From positions 1 through 52,045 of the forward strand of contig NZ_KB893741.1 in the NCBI RefSeq assembly GCF_000374165.1: a DNA stretch of 52,045 nucleotides, in the 5' to 3' direction. The notes beneath the pieces were generated by a model. It saw only the letters and a list, made by a program, of their open reading frames with translations. It was not told the origin of the DNA and did no database searches. This document shows, piece after piece, positions 11,587-44,074 of this stretch (positions are counted from its first letter, which is position 1; each line of letters starts with the position of its first letter). The stretch comes from Parafrankia elaeagni (GTDB lineage Bacteria > Actinomycetota > Actinomycetes > Frankiales > Frankiaceae). The translations under genes were made by a program, and so were the position numbers.

Positions 11587-13002
11587 CTACAGCGCGCCCT
11601 CATCCGACGCCCGCAGAGCCGGCTTGGCGCGTTGCTGTTCAGGGTCGCCGGTGAGCCGCGCCACCGAACGCAGCGGGATGCCGATCCAGCCGGGCCGGTG
11701 GCGTGCCTCGTACAGCACCTCGTACACGGCCTTGTCCAGCTCGAAGGCGCTCAGCAGGGCACCCTCGTCGCGCGGGTCGGTGCCGGAGCGGGCGCCGTAG
11801 CCGCGGCAGAACGCGTCCCGGTTGCGGTCGGCCCACTCCAGCGCGCGGTAGGCCAGTGCCGGCTCGTCCTGGCGCTCGAGCAACATCGACTGGGCGGCGT
11901 AGTCGAACGACCGGAGCATGCCGGCGACGTCCCGCAGCGGGGACTCGAGCACGGTGCGCTCGGGTACCGGCCGGGCCGGCTCGCCCTCGAAGTCGAACAG
12001 CACCCACCCGGACTCGACCCGCAGCACCTGCCCGAGGTGCAGGTCGCCGTGGATGCGCTGGAACGGCGCCGGATGCTCGATGCCGCGGACGGCGTCGTAG
12101 GCGGTCCGCAGCGCCGTCTCGAACGGCGCCAGCTCGGTCACCGCGGCCAGTGCGCCGTCGAGCCGCTGGTGCAGGTAGTCGGCGACCGCGCCGAGGGTGG
12201 CGGCGTCGGCCGGTCGGGTCGGCAGTGCGCCCGCCAGGTCGCGGTGGACCTGGGCGGTGGCGGCGCCGAGGCGCTCGGCCTCGGCGGCGAAGTCACCGCC
12301 GACCTCGTCGGCGTGCAGATCGCCCTCGGCGTACAGATCGCGCACGCTGGCCAGGGCCAACAGCCAGCCCTCGGCACCGGTGCGCAGGTAGTCCTGCATG
12401 AAGGCGAAGGTGGTCGGGATGCCGGAGAGCTGCCCGCTCAGCCAGGCGACCGGGCGCGCCACGTGACCGCTGCCAGCCCGAGCCAGCACCTGGGTGATCT
12501 CCAGGTCCGGGTTCATCCCGGGCCACAGCCGGCGGAACACCTTCAGGATGTAGGCCTCGCCGTACACGACCGAGGTGTTCGACTGCTCCGCGCCGACCGG
12601 GCGGGCGGTGAGGTCCTCCAGGGTCTCCACCGCGGTCGCGGTCAGGCCCTCGCGGCTCGCGCCGCGCCGCAGGTAGGTCAGCAGGGCGGCGTTGCCGTCG
12701 GCGTCGCGCAGGCCGTCGTAGACCATGCCGCCCGCCGACTCGCCGATCAGGAAGCCTTCGTGGCCGAACGGGGAGTCGCCCCGGATCACCACCGGGACCT
12801 GGTAGTAGTCGCCGGGCCCGCCGTCGTCGTAGCTGACCTGGATCACGAGCAGGCGCAGCACGGCCTTCGCCTGCGAGTCCAGTGTGAGCCGGATGTCCTG
12901 TTCGACGCGCAGCCGCCCGCCGGCCCGGCCCTTGCCCGCGAACCATCGCTGCCGGGGCAGCCAGTCCGAGAGCAGGGCCGTGAGCTCGGAGTGGTCCGTC
13001 AT
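11587..13002 (-). CDS. mak: Maltokinase
   Basis: A 471-residue kinase (Mak/Pep2 family) that phosphorylates maltose to maltose-1-phosphate, the donor for GlgE. The ATG at 13002 is preceded by a strong GGGAGGT; the frame is open for another 120 codons upstream but that part has no homology-like character. Typical features are [13 protein letters not shown] at the N-terminus, the catalytic-loop segment [13 protein letters not shown], and the metal-binding Asp in [11 protein letters not shown]. It is a separate gene, not fused to treS as in some actinobacteria, and sits between treS and glgB in the same direction. Confidence 0.96.
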
Positions 13003-13172
13003 GCTCGACCTCCCTGCGCGTCGCTGCCGCTGCCGCGTCGTCGTCGGCGCGGCCTTCCGGCCACCGCTCGGGCGGGACCGATGTGCCGCGCGATCCGTGC
13101 GTGAGCGTGTGGGCCGGCAGACCTCATCGTGACGGCGGCCCACACGAAGATCAAGGTGTGGCCGCCGACCGC

Positions 13173-17005
<3,833 letters not shown>

Positions 17006-17029
17006 GGGGACCTTATCCAGACGAACCAC

Positions 17030-18020
17030 GACTCAATGGTCGACCCTGCACATGGCGTTCGATGACACCGCCACGTGAACTGCATGCAACCACCGGATGG
17101 GTCTGCGTTGTTTCCACGGTGTGTCTGGCTGTGCTGTCCGGATGGTTACGGTCCTGACCGATGTTCCCGGCTTGCCGGGGTCGTTAACCCTCCGCCGTCG
17201 ATATTGCTTGCGTTGATCTTGTTGGGTGACTGGTGGGCGGCTGGCGCGGGCCGCGTCGAGGCCGTCGCGATCCGCCCCGGCGTCCATTTCTGACGGTGTG
17301 CCCATCGGGCCGGCGGTGTCACTCCGCAGTCGGGCGATGTGTCGGCGGCGTGACAGACCTTCTGGGCATCGACGGACCTTCGGTGGTGGCACGCTCCTCG
17401 ATCAGGGAACTTCGTCGAGCTGTCGTTCGTCTCGCTGGGCACGGAACTGTCGCACAGGAACTGCTGAACACCCACACTCATCGGCTGGCGCACCGGAGCG
17501 CAACCGCACCGGGCCGGGCGATGCACCGCACGGGAGGCGTGGCCGGGGCTGTGGCAAGGGGACAGTACGGCCGCCGGGGCCGCCGCCCTCGGGCGTGTTC
17601 GCCGTGTTCGCCGTGTTCGCGTCGCCCGGGGCCGCCCGCTCGGCCTCGCCGTGCCCCGACCGGTGCGCGGCGGGCCGCCCGTGTGACATCCGTGGGCACT
17701 CCGCGTGCCGGCGTGGGTGGGCGGCGGGCACTCCGGGCCCGCGTGGGGCCTTCGGCGTGAAGTGTGACGCAGTAGGCTGCCGCCGCCCGTACGCCCGGGT
17801 GGCGGGGCCTGTGTACGACCGGTCCGGTCCGGTCTGGCCGCGGGGGCGGCCGGGCGGCGGCCGGGAGAGGTGGGGAGCCTGACGCACCTGTCCGGTGAGC
17901 CCTGTGTGCGGCTCGCCTGACAGGCGGCGGGCCGGCACCAGCCCGGCCCGCCGATGATCTGAACCCCCGAACCGGACATCACCCTGAACATCGACCCTGA
18001 ACATCGAAACTGGAGGAGCA
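17030..18020. other. 991-bp intergenic region between divergent glgE and terD
   Basis: No convincing gene is seen. Open frames on both strands are Arg/Pro/Gly-rich and overlap one another, as expected of GC-rich noncoding DNA. The left part (about 17040-17230) is less GC-rich and should hold the glgE promoter. It includes a small perfect hairpin, CCCGGC-TT-GCCGGG, at 17166-17179. A triplicated GTGTTCGCC-type motif lies near 17597-17622. The terD promoter should be close to 17900-18010; I could not fix its -10/-35. Confidence 0.6.
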
Positions 18021-18596
18021 GTGGGAGTCAGCCTTAGCAAGGGCGGCAACGTTTCGCTGACCAAGGAGGCGCCCGGTCTCACCGCCATCGTCGTCGGTCT
18101 CGGCTGGGACGTGCGGACGACCACCGGCGACGACTTCGACCTGGACGCCAGCGCCATCGCGTGCCGGGCCGACGGCAAGGTCGTCTCGGACGGGCACTTC
18201 ATCTTCTTCAACAACCTGAAGAGCCCGGAGGGTGCCATCGAGCACCAGGGCGACAACCTGACCGGCGAGGGCGAGGGCGACGACGAGAAGATCAACGTCA
18301 GCCTCGTGGGTCTGCCGGCCGACGTCGACAAGATCGTTTTCCCGGTCTCGATCTACGACGCGGACAACCGCTCGCAGAGCTTCGGCCAGGTGCGTAACGC
18401 CTTCATCCGGGTGGTGAACGCGGCGAACCAGTCCGAGATCGCGCGCTACGACCTGACCGAGGACGCCTCGACCGAGACCGCCATGGTCTTCGGCGAGGTC
18501 TACCGGCACGGGGCGGAGTGGAAGTTCCGCGCGGTAGGCCAAGGCTATGCCTCGGGTCTCTCCGGCATCGCCCGCGACTACGGGGTCAACGTCTGA
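18021..18596 (+). CDS. terD: TerD-family calcium-binding stress protein
   Basis: A 191-residue TerD/CABP-type protein of usual length. The GTG start at 18021 follows GGAGGAG. The opening [19 protein letters not shown], the first acidic motif [10 protein letters not shown], the segment [15 protein letters not shown] and the second acidic motif [12 protein letters not shown] match the calcium-binding double-sheet fold. The end [19 protein letters not shown] is also typical. TerD proteins are cytosolic and linked to tellurite, oxidative and envelope stress and to differentiation in actinobacteria. It heads a plus-strand island with a TerC-like membrane protein and a second TerD paralogue. The gene symbol is by family. 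Confidence 0.95.
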
Positions 18597-18985
18597 GCTG
18601 TCCGCCGGTCGCGGGGCCCGTGCGGGCCGTGCTGTCGTGCGGTGCTATCCCGGGGCGTGCCCGGCTCGGGGTGGCACCGGCAGCGGCACGGGCCGCACGT
18701 CGGCGTCCGTCGCGGCACACAGGTGCGTGCCAGGATGTGATCTCGCCGTCTCCGCGGCGGTCGGAGCAGACCAGAGCCGGCTTCCGTCAGATTTCGGTCG
18801 TATCCCCCGGGACCGCGGCTTAATACGATGCGCTCGACCACACGGCCGGCACAGTCCGGTGAACCGGACCCGATGTCCGGCGACAGCGCGGTGATGTGTG
18901 AGTGGTGGGGCCGGTACGGACCGCGGTCCCCGCTGCGAACGCCTGTCGGAGCATCGCGAGCCGGTCCGGGAGGTGTTTCCCAGCA
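18597..18985. other. 389-bp intergenic region between terD and the DUF475 gene
   Basis: No gene is seen. There is a short GGCCCG-TG-CGGGCC hairpin at 18615-18628 just after terD, which may act in termination. A TAATACGAT stretch at 18822-18830 resembles a -10 element upstream of the next gene, but I cannot identify a matching -35. Confidence 0.45.
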
Positions 18986-20191
18986 GTGCACACACTTCGG
19001 ATCTTTGGCTGGTCGATCGCGATCACAGTGATCGGCATCGCCGCCGCGGGCGTGATCGGCGGCGCCGACGCCGCGGCGATCGTCGCGATTCTGGCCGTTC
19101 TGGAGATCAGCCTCTCGTTCGACAACGCTGTGATCAACGCGACGATTCTCCGCCGGATGAGCGAGTTCTGGCAGCGGATCTTCCTGAGCGTTGGCATCAT
19201 CATCGCGGTCTTCGGCATGCGGCTGGTGTTCCCCATCGCGATCGTGGCGCTGACCGCGCACCTGAGCCCGGTGGAGGTCTTCGATCTCGCGTTGAACGAC
19301 GAGGCCGAGTACGCAGCCCGGCTGCACGAGGCGCATCCCTCGATCGCGGCGTTCGGCGGAATCTTCCTCTTCATGATTTTTCTGGACTTCATGTTCGACC
19401 CCGAGCGTGACATCCAGTGGCTGAAGCAGCTGGAGGAGCCCTTCCGCCGGGCCGGGCAGCTCGCCGTGCTGCCTGTCGTGACCGGGCTGGTCGCGTTGCT
19501 GGTCGTCGCCGAGGGCTTCTCGGGCGATCACACCCAGCAGGTGCTGACGGCCGGTGTCGCCGGTCTGGCCACGTACCTGGGCGTACGCGGGCTGGGCGAG
19601 TTCTTCGAATCCCGCGGGGTCGGCGCCGAAGTGGACGAGGACGCGAACGGCGAGGCCGGAGAGAGCGGCGCGGGTGACCCGCCGCAGCGCCGGAGTGGTA
19701 CTCCCGACCTGGTGCTCGCCACCGGCCGGGCCGCCTTCTTCCTGTTCCTCTACCTGGAGGTGATCGACGCCTCGTTCTCGTTCGACGGTGTCGTCGGCGC
19801 CTTCGCGATCTCGCAGAACATCTTTATCATCGCGGTCGGTCTCGGTATCGGCGCGATGTACATCCGGTCGGTCACGGTGTTCCTGGTCCGGCGTGGAACG
19901 CTGGGCGAGTACATCTATCTCGAGCACGGGGCGCACTACGCGATCGGTGCGTTGGCCGTCATCCTGGCTGTCTCCATCGAGACCGAGGTGCACGAGATCG
20001 TCACCGGTCTGATCGGTGTCGGATTCATCGGGCTGGCGTTGCTGTCGTCGATCCGGTACCGCGCGACGCAGCGCAAGGCGGCAGGCGGTGGCACGAGTGC
20101 CGTCGACAGCGGGGACGGGGACGGGGAGGACGTATCCGCCGCGGCCGGCGACGGCGAGGAGAACGCGCCCGTCATCGGAACCCGGACCTGA
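18986..20191 (+). CDS. TerC-like DUF475 integral membrane protein
   Basis: A 401-residue polytopic membrane protein, distant kin of TerC/YjbE metal-exporter-like proteins. I place the start at the GTG at 18986, after GGGAGG, so the first helix begins at TLRIFGWSIAITVIG. The two family half-repeats are visible: VLEISLSFDNAVINA near residue 38 and LEVIDASFSFDGVVGAF near residue 257. Each carries the acidic DNA/DG residues thought to line the pore. GAMYIRSVTVFLVRRGTL and YLEHGAHYAIGALA follow, and the acidic Gly/Asp/Glu-rich tail is cytoplasmic or disordered. About nine helices are expected. It lies between two terD-type genes, consistent with a membrane partner for the cytosolic TerD proteins. 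Confidence 0.93.
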   Translation: MHTLRIFGWSIAITVIGIAAAGVIGGADAAAIVAILAVLEISLSFDNAVINATILRRMSEFWQRIFLSVGIIIAVFGMRLVFPIAIVALTAHLSPVEVFDLALNDEAEYAARLHEAHPSIAAFGGIFLFMIFLDFMFDPERDIQWLKQLEEPFRRAGQLAVLPVVTGLVALLVVAEGFSGDHTQQVLTAGVAGLATYLGVRGLGEFFESRGVGAEVDEDANGEAGESGAGDPPQRRSGTPDLVLATGRAAFFLFLYLEVIDASFSFDGVVGAFAISQNIFIIAVGLGIGAMYIRSVTVFLVRRGTLGEYIYLEHGAHYAIGALAVILAVSIETEVHEIVTGLIGVGFIGLALLSSIRYRATQRKAAGGGTSAVDSGDGDGEDVSAAAGDGEENAPVIGTRT

Positions 20192-20349: not shown

Positions 20350-21027
20350 ATGGGAATCGACTACAACAAACGACCTGCGGCGCCGGCGGCCGGGCCTCCG
20401 GTTTCGCTGAGCAAGGTGACCCTGACCAAGACCGCGCCGAGCGTGTCGCTGAGCAAGCAGGGCGGCGGCGGTCGCCTGCACGTCAATCTCAACTGGGACC
20501 AGAACAACGCGGGTTCCGGCGGGGGCAAGAGCGGCTTCCTCAAGCGCGTGCTGAGCGCGGCGGGCGGCGGCGCCGACCTCGACCTCGCGTGCCTGTTCGA
20601 GCTGGCGGACGGCCGCTCCGGTGTTGTCCAGGCGCTGGGGAACGCGTTCGGCTCGTTCGACAACCCGCCCTACGTCCAGCTCGACGCCGACGACCGCACC
20701 GGTGCGACAGCGGGCGGCGAGAACCTGCACGTCAACCTGTCCCGCATCACGGAGATCCGTCGGCTGCTGGTTTTCGCCTTCATCTACGAGGGCGCCGCCT
20801 CGTTCGACCAGGCGAACGCCGTGGTGACCCTGACCCCGGCCCAGGGCGCGCCGATCGAGGTGCGCCTCGACGAGCGCGCCGGCGGTTCGCGGATGTGCGC
20901 GATCGCCCTGCTCACGAACACCGGCAACGACTTCACCGTCAGCCGCGAGGTTCGGTATGTGGGCGGCCACCGGGAGCTGGACACCGCCTACGGGTGGGGG
21001 CTGAACTGGTCCGCTGGCCGGAAGTGA
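20350..21027 (+). CDS. Divergent TerD/TerA-like stress protein
   Basis: A 225-residue TerD-superfamily protein. The ATG at 20350 has GAAGGAG upstream. An N-terminal extension repeats the VSLSK element twice (near residues 18 and 35) before the core. Core motifs are GGADLDLACLFELADG, LDADDRTG and GENLHVNLSRI, equivalent to the TerD metal-binding signatures, then EIRRLLVFAFIYEGA. The form is closer to TerA-like and tandem-SLSK paralogues than to the first TerD here. It is 158 bp after the DUF475 gene and 189 bp before the GrpE-like gene in the same direction, linking the Ter genes physically to the chaperone genes. Confidence 0.9.
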   Translation: MGIDYNKRPAAPAAGPPVSLSKVTLTKTAPSVSLSKQGGGGRLHVNLNWDQNNAGSGGGKSGFLKRVLSAAGGGADLDLACLFELADGRSGVVQALGNAFGSFDNPPYVQLDADDRTGATAGGENLHVNLSRITEIRRLLVFAFIYEGAASFDQANAVVTLTPAQGAPIEVRLDERAGGSRMCAIALLTNTGNDFTVSREVRYVGGHRELDTAYGWGLNWSAGRK

Positions 21028-21216
21028 CCGGAAGGTCAGGACCGGGCCGGAGTTGAGCGGACCGCCCGAAGAGGGCAGGCTGTGCTCTGGACCGGGCGCA
21101 CAGGCAACGACAGAACGGATCTGTGTCGGCTCGGGCCGCTCCCGTGACCCGGGCCGGGCCGACCCACCGGGATGATCCATCCAGTGCCGTCGCCTGCAGG
21201 GGAAGGGCGTTACTCC

Positions 21217-23805
21217 ATGTTCCAGCCACGCCGTTCCTCCCGCGCGGGCCGTTCGGGCGCGGTTCCCGACCCGGCCGCGCAGGGCGCGGAGCAGGACGAG
21301 GCCAACTACCGTTGGTTCGCGCCGGACCCGGTGCCCGAGGTGGACGAGCCGCCGGGCACCGGGCCGGACGGACCTGACCGCGGTGACGCGGAGCAGTCTG
21401 GCCGCGGTCCCGCCTGGTACGACACGGAGGACGGGACGGATCCGGGCTCCGGCGGCCATCCACGTCCCCGGGGCTACGTCGTCGCGGTGCCGGTCACGCG
21501 CCGCCCGCGTGACCACGGATCGCGCGGCGGCGGTGACGGCCGCGGCGGTGACGGCGGCCGGGAGTCGCTGTTCGCGCCCGAGAGCTACGAACGTGCGGGG
21601 TACGGCCCGCCGGACCGCGGCGCTGGCGACCCGGAGGCCGACTTCCGCGCCGCGTACCCGGACGCGCCCTACGGGGTGCCGGCCGAGGAGTACCCCGCCG
21701 CCGGGTACCCGGCGGCCGAGGCGCGCGGTGGCGGCTACCAGGATTCCGGCTATCGGCTGCCGGCCGGGCCTGCCGGCGGGTACGGGACGGCCGGCCAGTT
21801 CGACCGGCCCGATTTGCCCGGCACCCGCGACCGCCGTGGTGACCCGCGGGCCGATCGCCTCGCCGAGGACCGCTCCGCGCCCGGCGGGTACGTCGAGGCC
21901 GATCGCTACGGTGAGACAGACGGTTATGCCGGGGGCAGCGGTTACGAGGGCGCCGGCGGTTACGAGGGCACCCGCGCCTACGGCGGCACCGACGGCGGAT
22001 CCGGCGACCGTGACTACGGGACGGAGACCGCCGGCTACGGCGAGGCCGGTGGCTACGTCGCCACCGACGGCTATGCGGGCACCGACGGCTATGCGGGCAC
22101 CGACGGCTATGCGGGTGCCGACGGCTATGCGGGTGCCGACGGGTACGCCGGCAAGGGCGATCGCGCGGGCGCGGGCGACTACCGCCCGGATGAGTACGCC
22201 TCCCCCAGGGAGTACACCGGCTCCGGCGACGGCGGCAGTCAGGGCGACGCCGGAGGGTACGAGAACGCAGGTGGCTACGCCGGCGACCGCGCCGGGCGGG
22301 GTGACTACCGCGCGCCGGCCGACTACGACCCGGCCGACTACGACCCGGCCGACAGCTACCAGGACGGCAGCGGCTACCAGACCGCCAACGGCGGCGACCG
22401 CGCACCCGGGTACGACCGTTCCGACGGGCCCGACCGCGCCGACGGCTACGAGAGCCGCGGCTATGACGACGCTGCTGCCCGCTTCGACCGCTCGGAGAGC
22501 CGGCGCCGGGCCGACCTGCCCGAGGGCTTCCGCTCGGCGGACCAGTACGACGCCACCGCGGTCAGCGCCGACGCCGAGTACCCGGACAGCGGCTACCCGG
22601 CCGACCCGGGGTTCGCCGGTCGCCCGGCGTACGGCCGGGCGGAGTACGGCGGCGCCGACTATCCGGATCCGGACGCTGATCCGGCCCCCTACCTGGACCC
22701 GCCCCGCCCCGACGCCGAGGTGTCGGGGCCGTCGGCCACCCCGGCCGGGCCAGCTGTCACGGACGGTGTGGCCAACGCTCCGAGCCTCCCCCCGCTGCCC
22801 GTCCAGAAGATCGACTTCTTCCGGCGTGACAGCCCGCCGACCTTCGACGCCGGTCCGCCGCCCACGGTGCAGGCGCCTCTCGAGGAGGAGCATGCCAGCG
22901 GCCACGCCGCCCGTACGGACGAGTTCGATCTGCTCGACTACGAGATTCTCGGAGGCGGCCCTTCGGGCCGGCACCGCGCCGACCCGATCGGTGACCCACG
23001 CGGCAGCGCCGAGGGCTCTGCGGGTGACGGCGGGGACGTCCCCGGGAGGGCCGAGGAGCGCGCCGCGGTCGGTCCGCCGGCACCGGGGCTGGTGGACGAC
23101 CTGACCGGGCCGGGCCTGCCGGGCCTGCCGGGCGCGGTCGACCTCCCGGGCGGCACCCTCGACTCCGGCGCCTTTGCCGCGGGGACGTCCGATCCCCGGG
23201 CCGCGATCGGCGGGCTCGAGATGCCGGACGCGGCGGACATCGTCCCGGCGCTGCCGGGGGTGCGCGGCCCGGACGGCTCCGCGGCCGCGACGCCCGCCCC
23301 GGCCACCGACGCCGACCGGGGCGACCGGGCTGCGGAGGACGGTGCCGCCGCGGTGGCCGACCGGCTCGTGCTGGAGAGGCTCGCCGAAAGTGTGGACGAA
23401 CTCGTCCGCCTGCGGCGGCATGACGCCGAGCTCGTCGACCGCCTGCACGCGGAGAACAGCCGCCTGCGCGGGGGCGAGCTGACCGAGGCGATGGCACCGC
23501 TGCTGCGCGGGCTTGTCCGGCTCTACGACCAGATGAGCAGTCTCGGGGGCGAGGACTCGCAGAGCGTCGCCGGCATCCTGCGCAAGCAGCTGCTCCAGAT
23601 CCTCGACCTGGCGGCGGACGTCCGTCCGTTCACCCCGGAGGTCGGGGAGTCCTTCGACCCGGGCCGGTTCCTCGGGGTCCGGCGCGTCGCCACGGACGAT
23701 CCGGAGCTCGCGGGGACGGTCGCCCGGACGGTCCGGCCCGGCTTCGTCCGGGGCGAGTCAACTGTCATCCGCCCGGCGGAGACCGAGGTGTACCGGGCGC
23801 GCTGA
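21217..23805 (+). CDS. GrpE-like nucleotide-exchange domain on a giant Tyr/Gly/Asp-rich disordered protein
   Basis: An 862-residue protein. The chosen ATG at 21217 follows GGGGAAGGG; another ATG at 21172 is in frame. Residues 1 to about 700 are low complexity, dominated by Gly, Tyr, Asp, Ala and Arg with spaced tyrosines ([15 protein letters not shown]), and include five hexapeptide repeats at about residues 283-312. Only about the last 145 residues look folded. A coiled coil begins near residue 718 ([19 protein letters not shown]). A GrpE-like end follows: [12 protein letters not shown], then [22 protein letters not shown] and [10 protein letters not shown], matching the GrpE beta-domain order. 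Ordinary GrpE is about 180-270 residues. The next gene is an Hsp70, so it probably serves as that protein's exchange factor. Confidence 0.85.
22063..22152 (+). repeat. Five in-frame 18-bp repeats (hexapeptide [12 protein letters not shown])
   Basis: Units ACCGACGGCTATGCGGGC at 22063, 22081, 22099, 22117 and 22135, with few changes. They use the TAT codon for Tyr in four units, unusual for this GC-rich context, which points to recent unit duplication. They lie inside the disordered part of the GrpE-like protein. Confidence 0.9.
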
Positions 23806-24008
23806 CCCGCCCGATGACCACCGGATGGCCGTCCGGGGGACGGCCGGCTACAACGGCCTGCGGCGACCCCGTCATCATCATGAGGCAGATGCCGGCGGGA
23901 GTGACGCCGGCGGCGAGGCCGGCGATGAGTTCCCGCCGGCGGTGTGGGGGCGTCGCCGGCTGCGGGCCGTCGGTGGCAGCAGTCGTCAGCGGAAGGGAAG
24001 ATCAGACG

Positions 24009-25760
24009 GTGGCAGGCACCAAGGTGTTCGGCATTGACCTGGGCACCACCTACTCGTGTATCGCCCAGGTCGACGAGTACGGCCGCCCGGACGTGATCCG
24101 CAACATCGAGTCTCAGCCCACGACACCCTCTGTGGTCCTGTTCGACAGCGCCGGTGAGAGCGCCGCGTCCGCGGGCGCGTCCGCGGGCGAAGTCGGCGCC
24201 GCGGGCGGGAGCGGGAGCGCCGCGGGGGCCGACAGCGGCGGGTCGGGCTCCTTCGTGGTCGGGACGCAGGCCAAGCGCCAGGCCCGGATCCGCCCGGACG
24301 ACGTCGCGCGGCTGGTGAAGCGGCACATGGGTGCCTCGGACTGGCGGTTCGTGGCCCACGACGTCGAGTACAGCGCCGCCTCGGTCTCCAGCCTGGTCCT
24401 CAAGGCCCTCGCCGCGGACGCCCAGCGGGCGACCGGCACGCCGGTGACCGACGTGGTGATCACCGTCCCGGCGTACTTCGGTGACGAGGAGCGCAAGGCG
24501 ACCAAGCTCGCCGGCGAGCTCGCCGGCCTCAACGTCGTCGACATCATCAACGAGCCGACGGCCGCCGCGTTCGCCTACGGGTTCGCGCAGGACGGCCAGT
24601 CCACCGCCACCGTGCTGGTGTACGACCTCGGCGGTGGCACGTTCGACACGACGGTGATCAGGCTCGACGGGAACGACATCACCGTGGTGGCCACCGACGG
24701 CGACCACGAGCTCGGCGGCGCCGACTGGGACAACGAGATCGTCCGCTACCTGGCGCAGAAGTTCGTCCAGGAGCAGCCGGACGCCGGTGACCCGCTGGAC
24801 GACGTCTACGACGAGCAGGAACTGCTCACCGGCGCCGAGGACGCCAAGCTCGCGCTGTCGGGACGGGAGAGCGTCGACGTCCTGGTGGTGCACGGGGGGA
24901 AGCGGTGCAGCGTCACGCTGACCCGGGCGACCCTGGAGGAGATCACCGCGCCGCTGCTGCAGCGCACGGTGGACCTCACCGCCTCGGTCCTGCAGCGGGC
25001 GAAGGAGAAGGGCGTCGACACCATCGACCTCTGCCTCCTCGTCGGCGGGATGAGCAAGCTGCCGGCGGTCGCCCGCCGGCTCGGTGAGACGTTCGGCCTG
25101 AACTGCCGGCTCGCCGACCCGGACCTCGCCGTCGCCAAGGGTGCGGCTGTCTACGGTCAGAAGAAGGCGCTGGAGCGCGAGGTCCGTGCGGAGCTCGTCT
25201 CGAGCGGGCGGCTGCGCCCGGACCAGCCGCTCGACGCCGCCGCCGCCGGCGACCTGGAGGCGGCCGCGGCCGCGAGCGCGTCCGCCGCCGGGCTGACGAC
25301 CTCCTCCGTGGTCGACCTGGTGCGCACCCGGGTGACGGACGTCACTTCCCGCGGGTTCGGGATCTTCGCGGAGGACCGCGGGTCGGCCGTCGCGGCCTTC
25401 CTCGCCCACCAGAACGACGCCCTGCCGATCCAGGTGAAGCGAACGTTCTACACGATCTCCGACGACCAGGCCGAGGTCGACATCCGCGTCTTCGAGCAGG
25501 GCACCGGCGTCGAGTCGACCCGCATCGACGACAACAAGGTGATCGTGGCCGGAGCGATCAGCGGCATCCCGGCCGGGCACCCCCGCGGCACTCCGGTCGA
25601 GGTCAGCTTCGAGATGGGCCGGGACCAGACCATCCAGGTGACGGCGACCCATGTGGGCGCGTCCGAGCCGCTGGTGCTGCGGGTCAAGGCGGGGGTCGGC
25701 AGCGAGAGCATGAAGACCGAGGAATCGGCCAAGGTCAACCTGCTCAAACAGCGGGACTGA
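24009..25760 (+). CDS. Divergent Hsp70 (DnaK-like) without helical lid
   Basis: A 583-residue Hsp70. The GTG at 24009 follows GGAAGGGAAG. The ATPase domain is well kept: [18 protein letters not shown] at the start, [44 protein letters not shown] and [21 protein letters not shown] Ser/Gly/Ala-rich loop of about 35 residues (near 47-81) is inserted after PSVVLFDS where DnaK has a short turn. The usual VLLLDV linker is replaced by a weakly similar stretch ending DVTSRGFGI (near 444), after an Ala-rich spacer. The beta substrate-binding domain follows, and the protein ends soon after it (KVNLLKQRD), so the alpha-helical lid is missing. It lies between the GrpE-like and J-like/zinc-ribbon genes and is clearly not the housekeeping DnaK. 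Confidence 0.93.
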
Positions 25761-25887
25761 CCGCCGCCGGGAGCCCGGGCGGGTCGGGGCGACCACCACG
25801 GTGGCCGCGGGCCCGGACGGGATCCGTACCCTCGTCGGAGGAGCGGAGTGCCCGGCAGGCGGGCGGGGGTGGAACGAGGGTGGAGCG

Positions 25888-28800
25888 GTGAGCGCGGCAT
25901 TCGACGGCAGCGGCTACCGGCGACGGGTCCTGGCTCCGCTGCGCGCCCGGACGCCGGTGGACACCACCGACCCGTTCCTGATCGCGGACCTCGACCCGGC
26001 CCGGGAGGACACCGACTCGGACGTCGCCGCGCGGCTGGCCCGGGTGATGGCCTTCCTGCAGCGCGAGCGCAACTCGGCGAAGTACGCGGCGCTGGCGACG
26101 GAGCTCGTCCGCCGCCGGGCCGAGTGGGAGGCGCCGCTGCTCGACGGCGACACCCGGGCGCACCTGCGCCAGCTGGTGCTCGACGCCCGCCGCAGCGGGG
26201 ATGCGGAGCGGCTCGCCAAGGTCGACGGCTATCTTGTCACGCTGCGTGATCGTTTTGGTGGCATTCCGGAGTCCCGTGTGGCGGGCCTGCGCCGGCTCGC
26301 CGCCGCGGCGGGTGTCACCGGCGCCGAGTTCGACGCCCGTCTCGCCCGCGAGCACATCATCGCCGACGGCGAGGGATCCGGTGTCGCCGCGCTGGCGCCG
26401 GAGGTTCGCAGCCAGATCCGGCAGCGCCTCGAGGACCTGCGCGTCCTGCGCGGCGGAGACCAGGTCGGCACCGCCTCGCTGTGGGACTTCCTGGGCCTGC
26501 CGCCCGACACCGGGCCGGACCGGATCCGGGCCGCCTGGGAGGCGGTGGCCGCGGGCAACGCCCGGCGACCGCACGACCGGGAGAAGACTCTGACGGCGGA
26601 CCTGCTGGCGATGGTGCGCTCCCGGCTCGTCGAGGGCGACCCCGCGGCGTACACCGCCGGCCTGCTGGCGGACGTCGCGGACGAGCTGCGCCCGGTCGTC
26701 GAGGAGCACGTGGTGCTCGACGGCGAGCTGACCGCGGTGGCCTACGAGGGCGCGGTCCGGGCTGCCCTGGCCGCTGGCCGCGGGCTCGGCGCCGAGCAGG
26801 TGAAGACGGTCATCCTCGGCATCGCGCGCGATCTCGGCGCCGCGGTGAGCACCGGGGGCGCCGTCGACTACGTGCTGTGCTCGGGCTGCGGACGTCCCGA
26901 GCCGGTCGGCGGGTCGGCCACCTGCCGCTACTGCGACACCGGGCTCTACACCACCTGCCCCGCGTGCTCGGCGCTCACCGAGGCGGCCGCCGTGACCTGC
27001 CGGCGGTGCGGCCACAGCCTGCGCCAGGTCCGGGCCGCCGGCGACGCGCTGACCGCGGTCCGCCAGGCCCTCGAGGGCGGGCGGCCCCGGGAGGCCCGCG
27101 AGGGCCTGGCCCGTGCCCGCGCGGCGCTCGCGGCGGCCGGGCCGGCCGGGGGCAACAGCGCCCGGGAGTCCGCGGAGGAACTGGAATCACTGGTCCGCGC
27201 CGCCCTCGGCGCCGCCGAGGCGGGCTGGCGCGCCCTTCTCGAGGACCGCGCCACCCTGCGGCCGGACGCCGCCATCGAACGCGCCCGCTGGCTGGTCGCC
27301 CGGGCCGCGGACGTGCCCGGCCCGGACGGCCGCACGCCCGCGGACGTCCTCGGCGAGCTGACCGCGGAGCAGGCGGTGATCCGGCGCCGGGTCGAGGCCG
27401 CTCGCGGGCTGCCCCCGCACCAGCGGGAAGCCGCCCTCGTCGCGGTGCTCGCCACCGCCGTCGACAGCCAGGACGCGCTGCGCGCGCTCGCCGCGGTGCC
27501 ACTCGCACCCCCGGACGACCTCACCGCAGCGGTGGTCGACAACGCGGTCGTCCTGCGGTGGCGGCCGTCCCCGTCCGCCGGGCCGGTCACCTACCGGGTG
27601 GAACGGATCACCGAGCAGCCGGGCTCGGCCCGGGCCGACCGGCGGGCGCTCGGCACGACCGGCGCCACCGAGCTCGCGGACGCCGGTGCGCCGGCCTGGG
27701 CGACGGTCCGGCACGAGGTGACGGCGCTGTCCGGCGACCGGCGGTCCCGACCGGTGACCACCCGGCCGGTCATCGCCGTCCGCGACATCGCGGACCTGCG
27801 CGCCGAGGCGACGCCGACCGGGGTGCGGCTCACCTGGCGGCCCGGCGGGCCCGCCGACACGGTCACCATCGAGCGGATCGTCGACCCGGACTCCGAGGTG
27901 ACCGCCCCGTCGCGGCGTGCCCGCGTCACCGGCGGCAGCTTCCTCGACCCGGACGTGCTGCCCGGGGTGGGCTACCAGTACCGGGCGTTCGTCGAGTACA
28001 CCGACATCGACGGCAACGCCGCCCGGACGGTGGGAGCGCAGGCCGAGTTCGGCGTGCCCTCCCGGCGCCGGCCGGTCACCGATCTGATGACCGGCTCGGA
28101 GGGCGATCAGGTCGCGTTGCGCTGGAACGCCCGGGCCGGGGCGGAGGTGCGGGTCTACGCGGTCCCCGTTCCGGTGGCCGGCCCGGTCACGTTCGCCGGC
28201 GCCGGCATCGGTGTGTCCGGCACATCCGGCACATCCGGCCGGTCCGCCGCGGCGGGGGCGGGTCTGCCGGGCGCGGTCGGCCCCGGCCTTCCCGGAGAGC
28301 CGACGTCCGGGCCGCTCGCCCTGCTGGGACAGGAGGGGACGGAGGTGCCGCTCGCCGCGCTGGTACCGCCGCTGCGGCTGGTCGGCGCCAGCCGCTACGG
28401 CCAGCTGCGGGACGCGGCGGTCCCAGGCAGCTCGGGCCTGCGGGAACTGATCTACACCCCGGTGACGGTCACCGGTGATCTCGGTGTGGTCGGGCGATCG
28501 GTGCGTCACCGGATGCCTGCCCCCGTCACGCCCCCGGCGCCGCGGGCCGCCGATCACGCCGGGCGAGACGCTCCGGCCCCCCTCGGCCGTTCTCCGCTGC
28601 CATCCCTCTCGCCGGGCACGCAGCCGGTGGTGATCGACGTGATGCCGATGCCTCCCGCCGTCCAGCTGGTGGAGACGTCGGTGCCCCTGACGTCCGCGGT
28701 GCCCCTGACGTCCGCGGTGCCTCTGACGTCCGCGGTGCCTGTCGCACCCGCCGTGCCCGCGGTGCCTGTCGCACCCGCCGCACCCGCCGCACCCGCCGCA

Positions 28801-29748
28801 CCCGCTGTGCCTGCCGTGCCTGCGGCGCACGCGCCGATGTCGGGGGTGTCCGATGATCTCGCCGTGGCCGCACCCACGACCGGCGCCTTCTGGCTGCCCA
28901 CCGGCCCACCGATCTCCGGCCTGCCGGTGGCCGGCCGGGCGGCTGGCGGGCATGCACCCGCCGGCCCGCCGCCCGCCTCGCAGCCGGTTACCGGGCCACC
29001 GCCTGCCGGGCAGCTGGCGGCCGGGCGGATGATGGCGAACGCGGGTCCGCCCACCGCCGGGATGCCGGTGCCCGGCCCACTGACGGCCGGAGTCCCGATT
29101 CCGGAACCGCTCGCCGCGGGGCTGCCGGTTCCCGGGGCTGCGACGCCGAACGGCGCCACCGAGCACACCGAGTACACCGAGTACACCGAGCACACCGGGC
29201 CGTACGGTGCGCTCTGGCACGGCGTTCCACCCATGCACGCAATGGCACCTGTGACTCCGATGAATCCGACGGTACCGGGGAGCCCGGACGGCGGGCCGGC
29301 AGTGCCGGGCGCCGCTCCGAACGGCAGGGGCGGCGTCGGCCACGCCGACGGGCCGGAGCCGGCGCTGATGATGGCCGCCGGTTCCGGCGCGGATCAGACG
29401 CCCCTGCCGGCCGCGGCGCCGAACCCGGCCGAGCTGAGCTCGGTGTCGTACACGGTGTCGAAGGCGGGCTGGCGGCGCCGGACGCTGCGGGTCCAGGTAC
29501 GGTCCACCGGGCCGACCCCACGGCTCGTGCTGGTGGCCCGGCCCGGCGAGGAACCACCCTCGACGCCGGCCGAGGGCCAGCCGCTCACCGAGCTGCAGCC
29601 TGCCGGGTACGCCGGGTCCTGGACCATGGAGGTCACCCTCGAGGGCGCGCAGCTGCCGTGGGGGGTGCGCCTTCTTCCGGTGGTGACGCCGGACGGGCCC
29701 GCCCTGTGGGTGGATCATCCCGAGGACAGTCAGCTCGTCATTCGCTGA
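25888..29748 (+). CDS. Large J-like/double zinc ribbon/fibronectin III protein
   Basis: A 1286-residue protein from the GTG at 25888 (GGTGGAG upstream). Residues 1-190 are helical and of unknown family. Residues about 197-255 resemble a J domain in helix order (WDFLGLPPDTGPDRIRAAWE, ending near EGDPAAYTAG) but the HPD signature is absent; RPHD occurs in that loop. Residues about 331-376 hold four CxxC pairs (CSGC, CRYC, CPAC, CRRC), a double zinc ribbon. A helical spacer follows, then two or three fibronectin III-like domains (about 541-628, 633-720 and possibly 728 onward). Next is a Pro/Ala/Val-rich disordered region of about 350 residues with short repeats. A conserved-looking C-terminal beta domain of about 100 residues starts near LSSVSYTVSKAGWRRRTL. 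No signal peptide or transmembrane helix is seen. The context suggests a client-binding co-chaperone for the upstream Hsp70; this is inference. Confidence 0.82.
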   Translation: MSAAFDGSGYRRRVLAPLRARTPVDTTDPFLIADLDPAREDTDSDVAARLARVMAFLQRERNSAKYAALATELVRRRAEWEAPLLDGDTRAHLRQLVLDARRSGDAERLAKVDGYLVTLRDRFGGIPESRVAGLRRLAAAAGVTGAEFDARLAREHIIADGEGSGVAALAPEVRSQIRQRLEDLRVLRGGDQVGTASLWDFLGLPPDTGPDRIRAAWEAVAAGNARRPHDREKTLTADLLAMVRSRLVEGDPAAYTAGLLADVADELRPVVEEHVVLDGELTAVAYEGAVRAALAAGRGLGAEQVKTVILGIARDLGAAVSTGGAVDYVLCSGCGRPEPVGGSATCRYCDTGLYTTCPACSALTEAAAVTCRRCGHSLRQVRAAGDALTAVRQALEGGRPREAREGLARARAALAAAGPAGGNSARESAEELESLVRAALGAAEAGWRALLEDRATLRPDAAIERARWLVARAADVPGPDGRTPADVLGELTAEQAVIRRRVEAARGLPPHQREAALVAVLATAVDSQDALRALAAVPLAPPDDLTAAVVDNAVVLRWRPSPSAGPVTYRVERITEQPGSARADRRALGTTGATELADAGAPAWATVRHEVTALSGDRRSRPVTTRPVIAVRDIADLRAEATPTGVRLTWRPGGPADTVTIERIVDPDSEVTAPSRRARVTGGSFLDPDVLPGVGYQYRAFVEYTDIDGNAARTVGAQAEFGVPSRRRPVTDLMTGSEGDQVALRWNARAGAEVRVYAVPVPVAGPVTFAGAGIGVSGTSGTSGRSAAAGAGLPGAVGPGLPGEPTSGPLALLGQEGTEVPLAALVPPLRLVGASRYGQLRDAAVPGSSGLRELIYTPVTVTGDLGVVGRSVRHRMPAPVTPPAPRAADHAGRDAPAPLGRSPLPSLSPGTQPVVIDVMPMPPAVQLVETSVPLTSAVPLTSAVPLTSAVPVAPAVPAVPVAPAAPAAPAAPAVPAVPAAHAPMSGVSDDLAVAAPTTGAFWLPTGPPISGLPVAGRAAGGHAPAGPPPASQPVTGPPPAGQLAAGRMMANAGPPTAGMPVPGPLTAGVPIPEPLAAGLPVPGAATPNGATEHTEYTEYTEHTGPYGALWHGVPPMHAMAPVTPMNPTVPGSPDGGPAVPGAAPNGRGGVGHADGPEPALMMAAGSGADQTPLPAAAPNPAELSSVSYTVSKAGWRRRTLRVQVRSTGPTPRLVLVARPGEEPPSTPAEGQPLTELQPAGYAGSWTMEVTLEGAQLPWGVRLLPVVTPDGPALWVDHPEDSQLVIR
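28681..28734 (+). repeat. Three in-frame 18-bp repeats (VPLTSA)
   Basis: Near-identical units GTGCCCCTGACGTCCGCG at 28681, 28699 and 28717 within the disordered region of the J-like/zinc ribbon protein. They are followed by degenerate Val/Ala/Pro repeats to about 28830 and a 9-bp TEY/TEH-type repeat near 29158-29197. Confidence 0.85.
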
Positions 29749-30217
29749 GGCCCGTCCGAATCGCGCGGAGACCTCCGCCGCCTGACCGATGACGCTTCGC
29801 GGAGAACCGCGAAGAAATTCGCCGTAGCGAAGCCGATGTGGTCTGGATCGCCTGGACAACACGGTTCGTTGTGTATCCGTTACTTAAGCGCGCCGCTTCT
29901 GGGTGCTAGTTGATCGCCGATTTTCCCGCTACCACTCCGCATATTTCCCGGTAGTACTGCCCCCGTTCGGGTTGGTCCCTTACGATGAGTCCGTTCAGTC
30001 GTGTGCAGTTTGGTCGGATTCTTCTGAGGTCCGGCCGGCGAACCGGAGAATCCGTCGGACGCCGTCGGCTCTGGCACCGCAGCGGCGCGCTGGGTCACAC
30101 CACGGTGGTGGCGACCCGGAGGGGACGAGCCGCGGGGAGGCACCACGAGTCCTCCCGCGTGTGCCGGTCGTGTGTCCGCCGATGATCCGCGCCACAACCG
30201 AAAGGCGGCCCGCGAGC
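29749..30217. other. 469-bp intergenic region before the GH26 gene
   Basis: No gene is recognised. It starts with a hairpin (separate entry). The stretch about 29815-30000 is less GC-rich than its surroundings (for example TTGTGTATCCGTTACTTAAG at 29868-29887) and is the likely promoter region of the GH26 gene. I could not assign a -10/-35 pair with confidence. Confidence 0.5.
29795..29814 (+). terminator. Hairpin after the J-like/zinc ribbon gene
   Basis: Perfect 8-bp stem CTTCGCGG with loop AGAA and complementary arm CCGCGAAG, 47 bases after the stop codon. It is followed by AAATTCGCC, not a true T-run. It is a probable transcription end separating the chaperone genes from the GH26 gene. 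Confidence 0.5.
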
Positions 30218-31942
30218 ATGGCCTCGACACTCGGCGGCCGACCGACCCCTCGGGTCGACCGCCTATCCCGCGCTGGTCTCCGCCGGCGCTTCGCTGTCTG
30301 TCCTTCCTCCCGCACGTCCGGCCAGCGCATGTCCGGCCAGCGCACGTCCGGTCAGTTCGGGCGCAGGCGTGGCCGCCGGGTCGGCCGCGGGCCCCGGCTG
30401 GGCCTCGCCGCCGCGTTCGCCATCCTGCTGTCGCTGGAGCTGGTGTCTCCCGCGGGCGCCGTGGCTGCCGGCGTGACGCCGACCCCGTCCCGTTCCCCGG
30501 CCGGCGGCGCTGGCCCGGGTGACCCGCAGAGCCCTGCCGATCCAGGAGCCGGTCAGCAGGTTCCCGTCGCCGGCCTGACATCCGGCCCGGCCGCGACCGG
30601 GCGGGCGACTCTGACGGTCGTGCTGTTCGACGGCGACATCGTGCTTGTGGGCGGCCGTGGTTTCAGTGCCGACGGCGATGTGACCGTGACCGCGGCCACC
30701 ACCGATCTCGGTGGTTCGGCAACGGCCCGTGCCGGCGCGGACGGTCGGTTCATCCTCGGTTTCCAGGTGCCCGCCGGGTTCGCCGGCCGGGTGACGGTCA
30801 CCGCGCGGCAGGGCTCGCTGGAAGCCAGCGGATCGCTCGACGTCGTCGCCACCGAGGCCGCGGCCCCGGAAGCCACCCTCACCGAGGATGCCCCGGAGAA
30901 CCCGGCCCCGGAGGACCGGGACCGGGTTGTCTCCGCTCCGACCTCCTCGGCGCCGTCCACTTCCGCGCCGGCGGCCACCGGCGCTCCGGCCCCGGCGCCT
31001 GCGCCCAGCCCGGCCACGCAGCCGGCCCCCGCCGGTTCCGGCGGCGGTACCGGCGGGGCGCACTCGGGCCTGCCGTGGATGTCGGGCGTCTACCCCTCGC
31101 ACGTCCTGTCGCAGGTCCTGTCGTTCGGCAACTGGCGCGGCCGGCCGAACGACGTCGCGCACGTGTTCACCGTGCGGACCAAGGGCTGGTCTGCGATGGT
31201 CGAGCCGCGCTGGCCGCTGGACCTGTACAAGGGCTTCCAGGGCAAGCTGGTGATCAGCCAGCCGACCTACCCGAAGGGCCAGGGCAACAACGCGGCCTGC
31301 GCCCGCGGTGAGTACGACGAGCACTGGAAGAAGTTCGGCACCTTCCTGAAGAACAACGGCCGTGCCGACTCGATCGTGCGTATCGGCTGGGAGTTCAACG
31401 GGACGTTCATGTACTGGCATTCGGACGCGGCCGGGACGCAGTTCCGGGACTGTTTCCGCAGGATCTCCACGGCCATCCGGTCGACTGATCCGGAAGTGAA
31501 GATCGACTGGACGTTCAACGCGCACGCCTCGCCGGTGCCGAACGGTGGATCGCCGTGGGCGGCCTACCCCGGGGACGAGTACGTGGACTACGTGGGTATT
31601 GACTCCTACGACTGGTACCCGGCGTCCCGGAACGAGGCCGAGTGGAACCGCCAGTGCGACAACCCGAACGGTCTGTGCTACCTCCTGGACTTCGCCCGCC
31701 AGCACGGCAAGAAGGTCGGCGTGGGTGAGTGGGGTGTGGCTTCCTGCAGCCGAGGCGGCGGGGGTGACAACCCCTTCTACATCCAGAAGATGTACGACAC
31801 GTTCATGGAGTACAAGGACGTGATGGCGTACGAGGCGTACTTCCACGACGCCGCGCCCGGGAACGTCTGCTCGACCATTCAGAACGGCGGCCAGAACCCG
31901 AAGGCCTCCGCCACCTACAAGCGGCTGTTCGGAAGGGCCTGA
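30218..31942 (+). CDS. Secreted glycoside hydrolase family 26-like protein (beta-mannanase type)
   Basis: A 574-residue exported protein from the ATG at 30218 (AAAGGCGG upstream). A basic N-terminus of about 60 residues with three SGQR-like repeats leads to a hydrophobic segment GLAAAFAILLSLELVSPAGA, a long signal peptide or anchor. A beta-sandwich-like region (about residues 125-215) and a Pro/Ala/Ser linker precede the catalytic domain from about residue 290. The domain begins LPWMSGVYPSHV. The acid/base is probably E392 (RIGWEFNG) and the nucleophile E504 (GVGEWGV), the GH26 pattern. The substrate could be mannan, another beta-glycan or the cell's own exopolysaccharide. It sits between the chaperone triad and the nucleoside-metabolite operon without obvious functional link. 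Confidence 0.88.
   Translation: MASTLGGRPTPRVDRLSRAGLRRRFAVCPSSRTSGQRMSGQRTSGQFGRRRGRRVGRGPRLGLAAAFAILLSLELVSPAGAVAAGVTPTPSRSPAGGAGPGDPQSPADPGAGQQVPVAGLTSGPAATGRATLTVVLFDGDIVLVGGRGFSADGDVTVTAATTDLGGSATARAGADGRFILGFQVPAGFAGRVTVTARQGSLEASGSLDVVATEAAAPEATLTEDAPENPAPEDRDRVVSAPTSSAPSTSAPAATGAPAPAPAPSPATQPAPAGSGGGTGGAHSGLPWMSGVYPSHVLSQVLSFGNWRGRPNDVAHVFTVRTKGWSAMVEPRWPLDLYKGFQGKLVISQPTYPKGQGNNAACARGEYDEHWKKFGTFLKNNGRADSIVRIGWEFNGTFMYWHSDAAGTQFRDCFRRISTAIRSTDPEVKIDWTFNAHASPVPNGGSPWAAYPGDEYVDYVGIDSYDWYPASRNEAEWNRQCDNPNGLCYLLDFARQHGKKVGVGEWGVASCSRGGGGDNPFYIQKMYDTFMEYKDVMAYEAYFHDAAPGNVCSTIQNGGQNPKASATYKRLFGRA
30311..30355 (+). repeat. Three in-frame 15-bp repeats near the N-terminus of the GH26 protein
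   Basis: Units CGCACGTCCGGCCAG, CGCATGTCCGGCCAG and CGCACGTCCGGTCAG at 30311, 30326 and 30341 encode RTSGQ/RMSGQ repeats in the basic segment before the signal helix. Confidence 0.85.
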
Positions 31943-32012: not shown

Positions 32013-32239
32013 GTTTGCGTGTCGACAACTGTTGTGCATCCAGGTGTCGTGCGGTGTTTCGTCCCGGATCCCCGAAGGGGCGGGGTACCGTCTGCGACGG
32101 GCCCTCTGTCCCGCGCTGACCGCCCTGCGACCCGCGCGGCTCTGCGGGTTGGGTGAGGGATACGGCCTGGCCGTTCCCGATTCCGTGGATCGTCGTGCAC
32201 CGCCCCCGCTGCCGGAACGTCCTGACAGGAGCGAGCCGC

Positions 32240-33433
32240 TTGCGTCATTTCAGTTTCCTGGACGACGCCAGCGCGGGTGCGCTGTTCCACCGTGCTCCCC
32301 GGGAGATCGTCCCGACCGACGACCGGCGGCTGGTGGCCACGGCGCTGGGTGCCACCCTGTACGCCCCCGGCACCAGGCCACGCCTGGCCAGGGACGTCCG
32401 GCGGCAGGTGGCGGCAGGTGTGACGTCGATGGTCCTCTGCCTGGAGGACGCCATCGCCGACCACGAGGTGCTCGGCGCGGAGTCGAACGTCGTGGCCGCC
32501 CTGGACGATCTCGGTGCGGATCCCCCGCGCTGCGGAGCCGGCCCGCCGATGTTGTTCGTCCGAGTACGTGCCGTGGAACAGATAATGACGCTGCTGGGCC
32601 GCCTGAGCCGCCCGGCGCGCGCCCTCATCGCCGGATTCGTGCTGCCGAAGTTCGGCATCGAGAACGGCGGCCCGGGTCTCGCCGCGGTGCTGCGCGGATC
32701 GGAGGTGCTGGGCCGTCCGCTGTGGGCCATGCCGGTGCTGGAAAGCCCGGCGGTCATCTTTCGTGAAACGCGGGTCGACGAACTGGGCGGTGTGCGTCGG
32801 CTGATGGACGAGTACACCGACAACGTCCTTGCCGTGCGGCTGGGGGCGACGGACCTCTCCGGTCTCTTCGGGCTGCGCCGGGACCGGGATCTCACCATTT
32901 ACGACATCGCGGTGGTCCGGGACTGCATCGCCGACATCGTGAACATCTGCGCCCGCGGTGGTGACCATGTGGTCACAGGTCCGGTGTGGGAGTACTTCGC
33001 GCAACCGGAGCGATTGTTCGTCAGCGCGCTGAGGGTCACGCCGTTCGAGGAGGCCGACCTGGTCCACGGCAGCGAGCAGGGAGCCCGGATCCGGTCCGAG
33101 CTGGTATCCGCCGACTTCGACCGGCTCATCCGGGAGGTCGTGCTCGACAAGGCCAACGGCCTCATCGGCAAGACGGTGATCCATCCCACCCATGTGCCGG
33201 CCGTGCACGCGCTGCACGTCGTCACCCAGGAGGAGTACGAGGATGCGGAGGTGATCCTTGCCGGTGACACGGGCGGGGTACGGGCGAGCAGCTACGAGAA
33301 CAAGATGAACGAGCTTCGTCCGCACCGGCTGTGGGCCGAGGCGGTGCAGCGGCGGGCACAGGCGTTCGGCGTGCTGCGCGAGGGCCTCACGTTCGTCGAC
33401 GTGCTGGCCGCGACCCAGGACGCGCTCCGATGA
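32240..33433 (+). CDS. HpcH/HpaI (CitE-like) lyase of the Ter-associated biosynthetic operon
   Basis: A 397-residue CitE/HpcH-type TIM-barrel protein. The start is the TTG at 32240, with AGGAG eight bases upstream, giving MRHFSFLDDASAGALFHRAP; the upstream in-frame GTG at 32153 has no such support. Metal and substrate residues are visible in MVLCLEDAIADHE and PVLESPAVIF, and GKTVIHPTHVPAVHALHVV resembles the CitE C-terminal signature. It probably cleaves or forms a C-C bond on a CoA-like or keto-acid substrate. The stop overlaps the next ATG by 4 bp. Families in this operon are known from Ter-linked clusters predicted to produce a nucleoside-like metabolite (Anantharaman, Iyer and Aravind, 2012). 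Confidence 0.92.
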   Translation: MRHFSFLDDASAGALFHRAPREIVPTDDRRLVATALGATLYAPGTRPRLARDVRRQVAAGVTSMVLCLEDAIADHEVLGAESNVVAALDDLGADPPRCGAGPPMLFVRVRAVEQIMTLLGRLSRPARALIAGFVLPKFGIENGGPGLAAVLRGSEVLGRPLWAMPVLESPAVIFRETRVDELGGVRRLMDEYTDNVLAVRLGATDLSGLFGLRRDRDLTIYDIAVVRDCIADIVNICARGGDHVVTGPVWEYFAQPERLFVSALRVTPFEEADLVHGSEQGARIRSELVSADFDRLIREVVLDKANGLIGKTVIHPTHVPAVHALHVVTQEEYEDAEVILAGDTGGVRASSYENKMNELRPHRLWAEAVQRRAQAFGVLREGLTFVDVLAATQDALR

Positions 33434-41862: not shown

Positions 41863-41881
41863 CCCGATCCGTCAGGATCCG

Positions 41882-41887: not shown

Positions 41888-44074
<2,187 letters not shown>

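Follow-up and report, generated by a model that had tools for sequence, protein, structure and literature searches.

A lidless Hsp70 with probable GrpE-type and J-like partners in a Ter island of Parafrankia elaeagni

The stretch of DNA analysed here, referred to as the window, is a 52,045-nt contig of the 7.6 Mb genome of Parafrankia elaeagni, and all positions are window coordinates unless a locus is named. We focus on a trio of consecutive plus-strand open reading frames (ORFs; 21172-23805, 23814-25760 and 25801-29748) with coding-type G+C content at third codon positions (GC3). They encode a GrpE-like protein, an Hsp70 and a protein that combines a J-like segment with a double zinc ribbon and fibronectin type III (FN3) domains, and they lie in an island of Ter genes. 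The original prediction, made from sequence motifs, had assigned these domains and proposed that the three proteins cooperate and couple to Ter signalling. The assignments are borne out by profile comparisons, Pfam searches on relatives and AlphaFold2 (AF2) modelling; the trio turns out to recur well beyond this strain, and its J-Hsp70 contact residues differ from those of DnaK and DnaJ on both sides.

The second trio protein (23814-25760, 648 aa; likely true start near 24009) is an Hsp70 (PF00012, E 3.5e-91). The phosphate and adenosine motifs of its ATP site (K70, DLGGGT and LVGG positions), which belong to a nucleotide-binding domain (NBD) at 24024-25157, are kept in 34/34 rows of an alignment of 32 Hsp70s of the trio-type family and the two DnaKs of the same genome. 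Behind the NBD lie an insert of ~45-50 residues with a non-canonical linker (25158-25343) and a region resembling the β-part of the substrate-binding domain (SBD-beta, 25344-25700), after which no alpha lid follows. The window protein has 240 residues after the VGG motif, versus 301 and 288 in the two DnaKs, and because ~45-50 of these 240 belong to the insert there is no room for a lid. The earlier description of an Hsp70 with intact ATPase motifs and no lid thus stands.

A tree of the same 34 rows separates Ter-linked forms, solo forms (Hsp70-J-like pairs, described below) and forms from GAP1-N2 GTPase regions from the two DnaKs (support 100/100). The GAP1-N2 pair falls outside the clade of Ter and solo forms (98/98), i.e., it is a sister clade, and the solo copy of Frankiaceae branches within Ter-linked forms from other families (99/98, 100/99); the GAP1-N2 and DnaK rows in this tree are long branches. 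With the A2 profile, Ter and solo Hsp70s score at least 855 bits among the matches listed (22 in 12 of 148 genomes), the Hsp70s of GAP1-N2 regions match over their full length with 505 and 469 bits, and the next row reaches 341 over the NBD only. Judged from these comparisons, the trio protein is a divergent Hsp70 and not a DnaK. Since the genome holds two ordinary dnaK-grpE-dnaJ sets elsewhere (contigs C43 and C45), the trio represents an additional set; a housekeeping DnaK set was rejected as its identity on profile search scores and on interface residues unlike those of DnaK.

The GrpE-like protein (21217-23805) is encoded by an ORF that is open from 21172 (877 aa), with an ATG also at 21217, the start assumed originally. 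Its long, low-complexity N-terminal region is rich in G, A, D, P, R and Y and contains short tandem repeats, and its conserved C-terminal domain (approximately aa 732-877, 23365-23802) was delimited with alignments A1 and A6. Pfam returned no match for the window protein on its own. GrpE (PF01025) was matched by 11 of the 14 members of A6 (best 2.2e-9) and by 6 of 11 close relatives, and the A6 profile retrieved the solved GrpE structures 3a6m (3.4e-9) and 4ani (9.5e-9). On the strength of these profile matches, we class the C-terminus as GrpE-type. Most relatives align at the C-terminus only, with same-genus loci as the exceptions, and the giant N-terminal tail is no general feature of this family.

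The third protein (25801-29748, 1315 aa; likely start 25888) comprises a helical N-terminus, the J-like segment (26476-26637), the double zinc ribbon (26878-27012), an FN3 tandem (27490-28071; Pfam, BLASTP and A9 profile) and a low-complexity stretch; a C-terminal segment is conserved in several relatives, and the nearest named match, from Parafrankia colletiae, is 99% identical over the region of this protein. Pfam detected no DnaJ family in 18/18 members of alignment A3. When 16 segments of 100 columns each, slid over the 28-row alignment A5, were compared with four J domains from P. elaeagni itself, the four segments holding the first two J helices gave E-values of 3.3e-5 to 7.3e-5 and the other 12 gave 0.039 or worse, so that the match rests mainly on helices I-II. 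An AF2 model of the 391 N-terminal residues (mean predicted local distance difference test, pLDDT, 81; predicted template modelling score, pTM, 0.43) places helices 198-202, 210-225 and 231-248 in a J-type arrangement. The sequence RPHD (26566-26577) stands in place of HPD in the loop joining helix II to helix III. A Foldseek search with this model returned 12 named J-domain chains in the best 50 of 160 rows (E up to 10), with probabilities of 0.25-0.94. Among them are 4j7z_C (probability 0.94; root-mean-square deviation, rmsd, 1.8) and 5nro_B, a J domain solved with DnaK (target TM-score, TMt, 0.75; rmsd 2.0). All J rows have E-values above 1, no row of the best 50 reaches 0.001, and, ranked by E-value, the top of the list is taken up mainly by long helical non-J proteins with an rmsd of ~20. 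The J matches span 54-94 columns and probably fall on the J-like segment. AF2 and Foldseek together predict a J-like helix arrangement, as the original assignment implied. A classical J protein was rejected on the absence of the HPD motif, and the protein is termed J-like only.

The double zinc ribbon of the window protein remains under the curated Pfam cut-off (E 0.0028), and DZR is found in 9 of 18 A3 members (best 1.6e-6). Among full-length relatives, Pfam detects the ribbon in L037, from the same genus (locus labels are ours), and not in L034, L091, L099, L100, L102 or L125; outside Frankiaceae, one locus in 14 shows a C-x2-C pair, which lies well upstream of the matched region, and some of the ORFs in this count are cut by contig ends. 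By these searches the zinc ribbon is not general in the J-like family. The giant tail and the zinc ribbon, both named in the original prediction, are features of the window proteins and not general family traits. For FN3, the window protein alone stays below the Pfam cut-off (0.0055), and the A9 profile of the region matches fibronectin at 2.3e-6; Pfam finds no FN3 in six of seven full-length relatives and gives 0.08 in the seventh.

In the DnaK-DnaJ complex, D35 of the HPD motif touches R167 of DnaK and H33 touches linker residue L391 (PMC13012618). The R167 position holds R in both DnaKs of the P. elaeagni genome and in 0/32 trio-type Hsp70s, which carry D (24), G (7) or N (1); in the window it is the D of VVDIINEP (24534-24557). 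The linker VLLLD is replaced in trio-type Hsp70s by the ~45-50-residue insert (shorter in L125) and other sequence. On the partner side, HPD is found in 0/28 J-like proteins, which have RPHD (8), RPD (12), PPD (1) or one of PAG, AAG, PPG and GAG (7) instead. The two positions covary within loci: wherever the Hsp70 has D, the J motif keeps its D as RPHD, RPD or PPD (21/21 same-locus pairs), and wherever it has G, the J motif is PAG, AAG, PPG or GAG (7/7). We read this pattern as a change of both interface partners as a matched set, which may render the pair orthogonal to DnaJ. The roles originally proposed, exchange factor, ATPase and client adaptor, are not transferable unchanged from DnaK, DnaJ and GrpE, since neither side of the trio's interface keeps the HPD-R167/linker contact. 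In the literature searched, we found no account of a rewired Hsp70-J interface in such a trio. A matched loss of HPD and R167 would be an experiment of nature that shows which Hsp70-J contacts are indispensable, and it could supply an orthogonal chaperone pair.

Three plus-strand genes precede the trio, a canonical TerD (18021-18596, 191 aa; Pfam TerD 5.5e-85), a DUF475/TerC-like membrane protein (18902-20191, 429 aa; PF04332 7.3e-117, PF03741 1.4e-18) and a divergent TerD paralogue, TerD2 (20350-21027, 225 aa). Pfam gives no match for TerD2 itself; of three relatives scanned, TerD is matched by two (9.6e-5 and 0.0063) but not by the third, and profile comparison links TerD2 to TerD1 at E 2.6e-6. 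Pfam and profile comparison hence agree with the Ter neighbourhood as first described. On the same strand downstream, after a GH26-like gene, lie genes for a C-C_Bond_Lyase (32153-33433; PF15617 2.1e-116) and a PRTase_2-TRSP protein (33331-34926; PF15609 3.5e-67, PF12500 1.5e-37). We take the C-C bond lyase to be part of a Ter metabolite module. A tblastn search found no TerB in the window. Ter systems have been described as consisting of phosphoribosyltransferases (PRTases) and HAD enzymes that make a signal, ligand-binding TerB and TerD proteins, and TerC in the membrane (excerpts of PMC7824862). In one bacterium, TerD was among the proteins that co-immunoprecipitated with GroEL and DnaK (excerpt of PMC9111180), an indirect hint that TerD may be an Hsp70 partner in general. 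TerD occurs in 38 of 148 genomes, of which 26 have no strong trio match; all 12 genomes with a strong trio match carry TerD, a count that offers no independent statistic since 11 of the 12 come from one family.

The GH26-like glycoside hydrolase gene (29903-31942) has no match between the J-like and C-C lyase genes at L041, L042, L074, L075 and L077. Glycogen/alpha-glucan genes flank the Ter island on both sides (11587-17029 and 39301-44074) and include GlgE, alpha-amylase and maltokinase-cap families, a phosphorylase and a CBM48 alpha-amylase. At L091, a StiP-PELOTA gene (16736-17902) lies near the Ter and Hsp70/J-like genes.

The distribution of the trio was surveyed by genome searches in which few candidates were scored per genome (5 to 9), so that miss counts are upper bounds. 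The J-like profile A5, counting either copy, found matches in 39 of the 394 class genomes: 35 of the 36 family members listed (the exception is a genome 63% complete), three strong ones in another family (f4) and a weak one (6.9e-4). Searching with a single sequence gave matches in 13 of 148 genomes, one of them weak. Among 296 genomes of the phylum, the A3 profile matched only that of P. elaeagni, so that the trio is established within the class only. The Frankiaceae Ter type accounts for 22 of 54 named loci; TerD and DUF475 lie upstream in 15 of the 22 and GrpE is present in 19, the other 7 and 3, respectively, being cut by contig ends. Outside Frankiaceae, 17 loci were examined (14 named plus 3; species may overlap), with Hsp70 beside the J-like gene in 17/17, TerD in 11/17, GrpE in 10/17 and both GrpE and TerD in 6/17. 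Ter islands of Frankiaceae and two GAP1-N2 operons share the order GrpE-Hsp70-J/FN3, which supports the earlier view that the three genes belong together; at Mycobacteriales-type loci, GrpE adjoins Hsp70 but on the opposite strand, unlike in the window. A strain-specific oddity was rejected, as the survey finds the trio across Frankiaceae and in Gordonia, Pseudonocardia and others. The P. elaeagni genome also has a second Hsp70-J-like pair (contig C125; L034, 8860-13488) beside a histidyl-tRNA-synthetase-like gene, and this solo pair recurs in other Frankiaceae.

The identity of the Ter neighbours bears on the possibility that the trio is a metalation chaperone that keeps exported or membrane proteins fit for metal loading by the DUF475/TerC-like protein. 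The DUF475/TerC gene is close by, the J-like protein has a zinc ribbon, and TerC proteins of Bacillus subtilis have been reported to act in metalation at the SecYEG translocon (excerpt of PMC12096827). Outside Frankiaceae, however, TerD2 is the commonest Ter neighbour of the trio (11/17), and DUF475 is seen at only 3/17 loci (L052, L091 and L099). We know of no such role for any Hsp70, and we regard this explanation as improbable.

We favour, as probable though some way from secure, the reading that the three genes specify a dedicated Hsp70 cycle operating together with the Ter island and insulated from housekeeping DnaK and DnaJ. In such a cycle, the Hsp70 would bind and hydrolyse ATP, with a client held in the open, lidless SBD-beta, and the GrpE-type C-terminus of the first protein would reset the nucleotide. 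The J-like segment of the third protein would dock onto the Hsp70 through the rewired contact, and its FN3, helical and zinc-ribbon parts would bring in a client or partner. A likely client would be a Ter complex of TerD proteins, possibly including the DUF475/TerC-like membrane protein, and ATP would gate the assembly or disassembly of this complex. A lidless SBD-beta would probably bind clients quickly and weakly, which would suit the remodelling of complexes over refolding. ATPase activity, a physical complex, TerD as client, orthogonality to DnaJ and a role under stress would all be expected from this reading, and a coupling to Ter signalling, as first suggested, may be one of its consequences. 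Ter genes occur widely, and a recurrent ATPase module beside TerD offers a testable biochemical handle on how they act.

Several observations weigh against a dedicated, Ter-coupled module. The structure model of the GrpE domain (mean pLDDT 62, pTM 0.29) shows little beyond a long helix, and residues 101-163 mostly have pLDDT below 50, so that the model is too poor to judge the GrpE fold of a long helix plus beta-wing. The J-Hsp70 covariation may reflect only one or two events, since the G-type Hsp70 rows are confined to one part of the tree. As a promoter scan found none, a terminator scan was uninformative (5 found, 2.8 expected) and the intergenic gaps measure 127-305 bases with the likely starts, the trio is not established as one operon. 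GrpE was not found at 7 of the 17 loci outside Frankiaceae, which makes Hsp70 and the J-like protein the tighter core. TerD is missing from the DNA fetched for 6 of the 17 (L080, L100, L102, L107, L149 and L150), of which L080 is a short contig and the rest extend over 15-21 kb; the second pair on C125 has neither GrpE nor TerD within 20 kb. Given these six loci and the second Frankiaceae copy, we consider Ter a common, non-obligatory partner. The same loci and the solo pair would fit an accessory, otherwise ordinary Hsp70 set for which the Ter neighbourhood is historical only. To this explanation we give little credence, because Ter neighbours recur in Frankiaceae, metagenome-assembled genomes of Geodermatophilaceae, Gordonia, Pseudonocardia and one GAP1-N2 region, and the J-interface residues differ from those of ordinary Hsp70 sets.

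A system with closely similar parts has been described. Kaur et al. (2020, eLife) report a theme of HSP70 and GrpE in ~14% of GAP1-N2 neighbourhoods, accompanied by FNIII proteins fused to DnaJ or TPR and, in a subset, by a second HSP70 without a peptide-binding domain; the FNIII domains are named as possible direct sensors, and the main text mentions TerD a single time, calling it a nucleotide-related domain (PMC7159879, in part). Their combination of HSP70, GrpE and DnaJ-FNIII overturns the original statement that no described system has exactly these parts. We detected GAP1-N2 in 9 of 148 genomes and found no match in the P. elaeagni genome, on which ground a GAP1-N2 system proper was rejected; GTPase and GAP1 families had no match among the window proteins scanned, and DO-GTPase was not searched genome-wide. 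Nine GAP1-N2 regions were fetched, one of them cut at a contig end. Two (L120 from the same genus, L125 from another family) contain GrpE, Hsp70 and J/FN3 genes in the order of the window, followed by a DO-GTPase gene. In L120 (7562-18942), these genes are preceded on their own strand by one with a TerD domain (E 6.1e-17), the only TerD match among the nine regions. The FN3 region matches L125 by BLASTP at 5e-14, and the N-termini of the J/FN3 proteins of the window and the GAP1-N2 type show moderate similarity (E 1.8e-4, probability 48). By homology and gene order, the trio is best classed as a GTPase-free, Ter-embedded relative of the described GAP1-N2 Hsp70 module.

This kinship raises the question of whether the trio has remained a GTPase-less offshoot of these anti-invader conflict systems, in which the FN3 protein would sense the invader, Hsp70, GrpE and J proteins would assemble a signalling scaffold and Ter parts would respond. 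The homologous genes in the same order in 2/9 regions, with TerD upstream in L120, argue for it, as do the suggested sensor role of FNIII domains (PMC7159879, in part) and the proposal that Ter systems block phage entry (excerpt of PMC7824862). The absence of GAP1-N2 from the P. elaeagni genome argues against it, as does the presence of the J-like gene in 35/36 family members drawn, which is unlike a patchy defence locus; a PADLOC scan gave a single weak match (E 0.04). We consider such an offshoot rather doubtful, if not as improbable as the metalation or ordinary-set explanations. A dedicated Ter-linked Hsp70 cycle remains our preferred reading. Its boldest form, which we put forward tentatively and think somewhat more apt to fail than to hold, is a natural orthogonal Hsp70 machine with its HPD-R167/linker contact swapped as a matched pair, which would operate without cross-talk to DnaK and DnaJ and which both Ter islands and GTPase conflict systems would share as a means to take TerD-based complexes through an ATP cycle.

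Full-text literature searches for Hsp70, GrpE or DnaJ with TerD or Ter operons yielded few papers with both, and those read contain no Ter-linked Hsp70 trio and no GTPase-free, Ter-embedded form of it; Anantharaman et al. 2012 lay outside the search, so that a prior mention is possible. Excerpts of PMC7824862, PMC3710099 and PMC9111180 likewise contain no Ter-linked trio. Compared with known Ter systems, the window shares TerD, TerC/DUF475 and a PRTase gene, and presumably the C-C lyase as well, and differs by the complete Hsp70-type trio in its island. With the DnaK-DnaJ-GrpE machinery, the trio has in common an NBD with ATP-site motifs, an SBD-beta region, a GrpE domain and J-type helices, whereas it lacks a lid, the R167 equivalent and HPD, has a different linker, and carries its GrpE domain behind a long low-complexity region. 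The GAP1-N2 theme has the same gene order, with Hsp70 and GrpE genes homologous to those of the trio and an FN3 protein whose N-terminus is related; in contrast to that theme, the window trio is without a GTPase/GAP1 match, sits in a Ter island and has a zinc ribbon, and the GAP1-N2 Hsp70s form a clade sister to its own.

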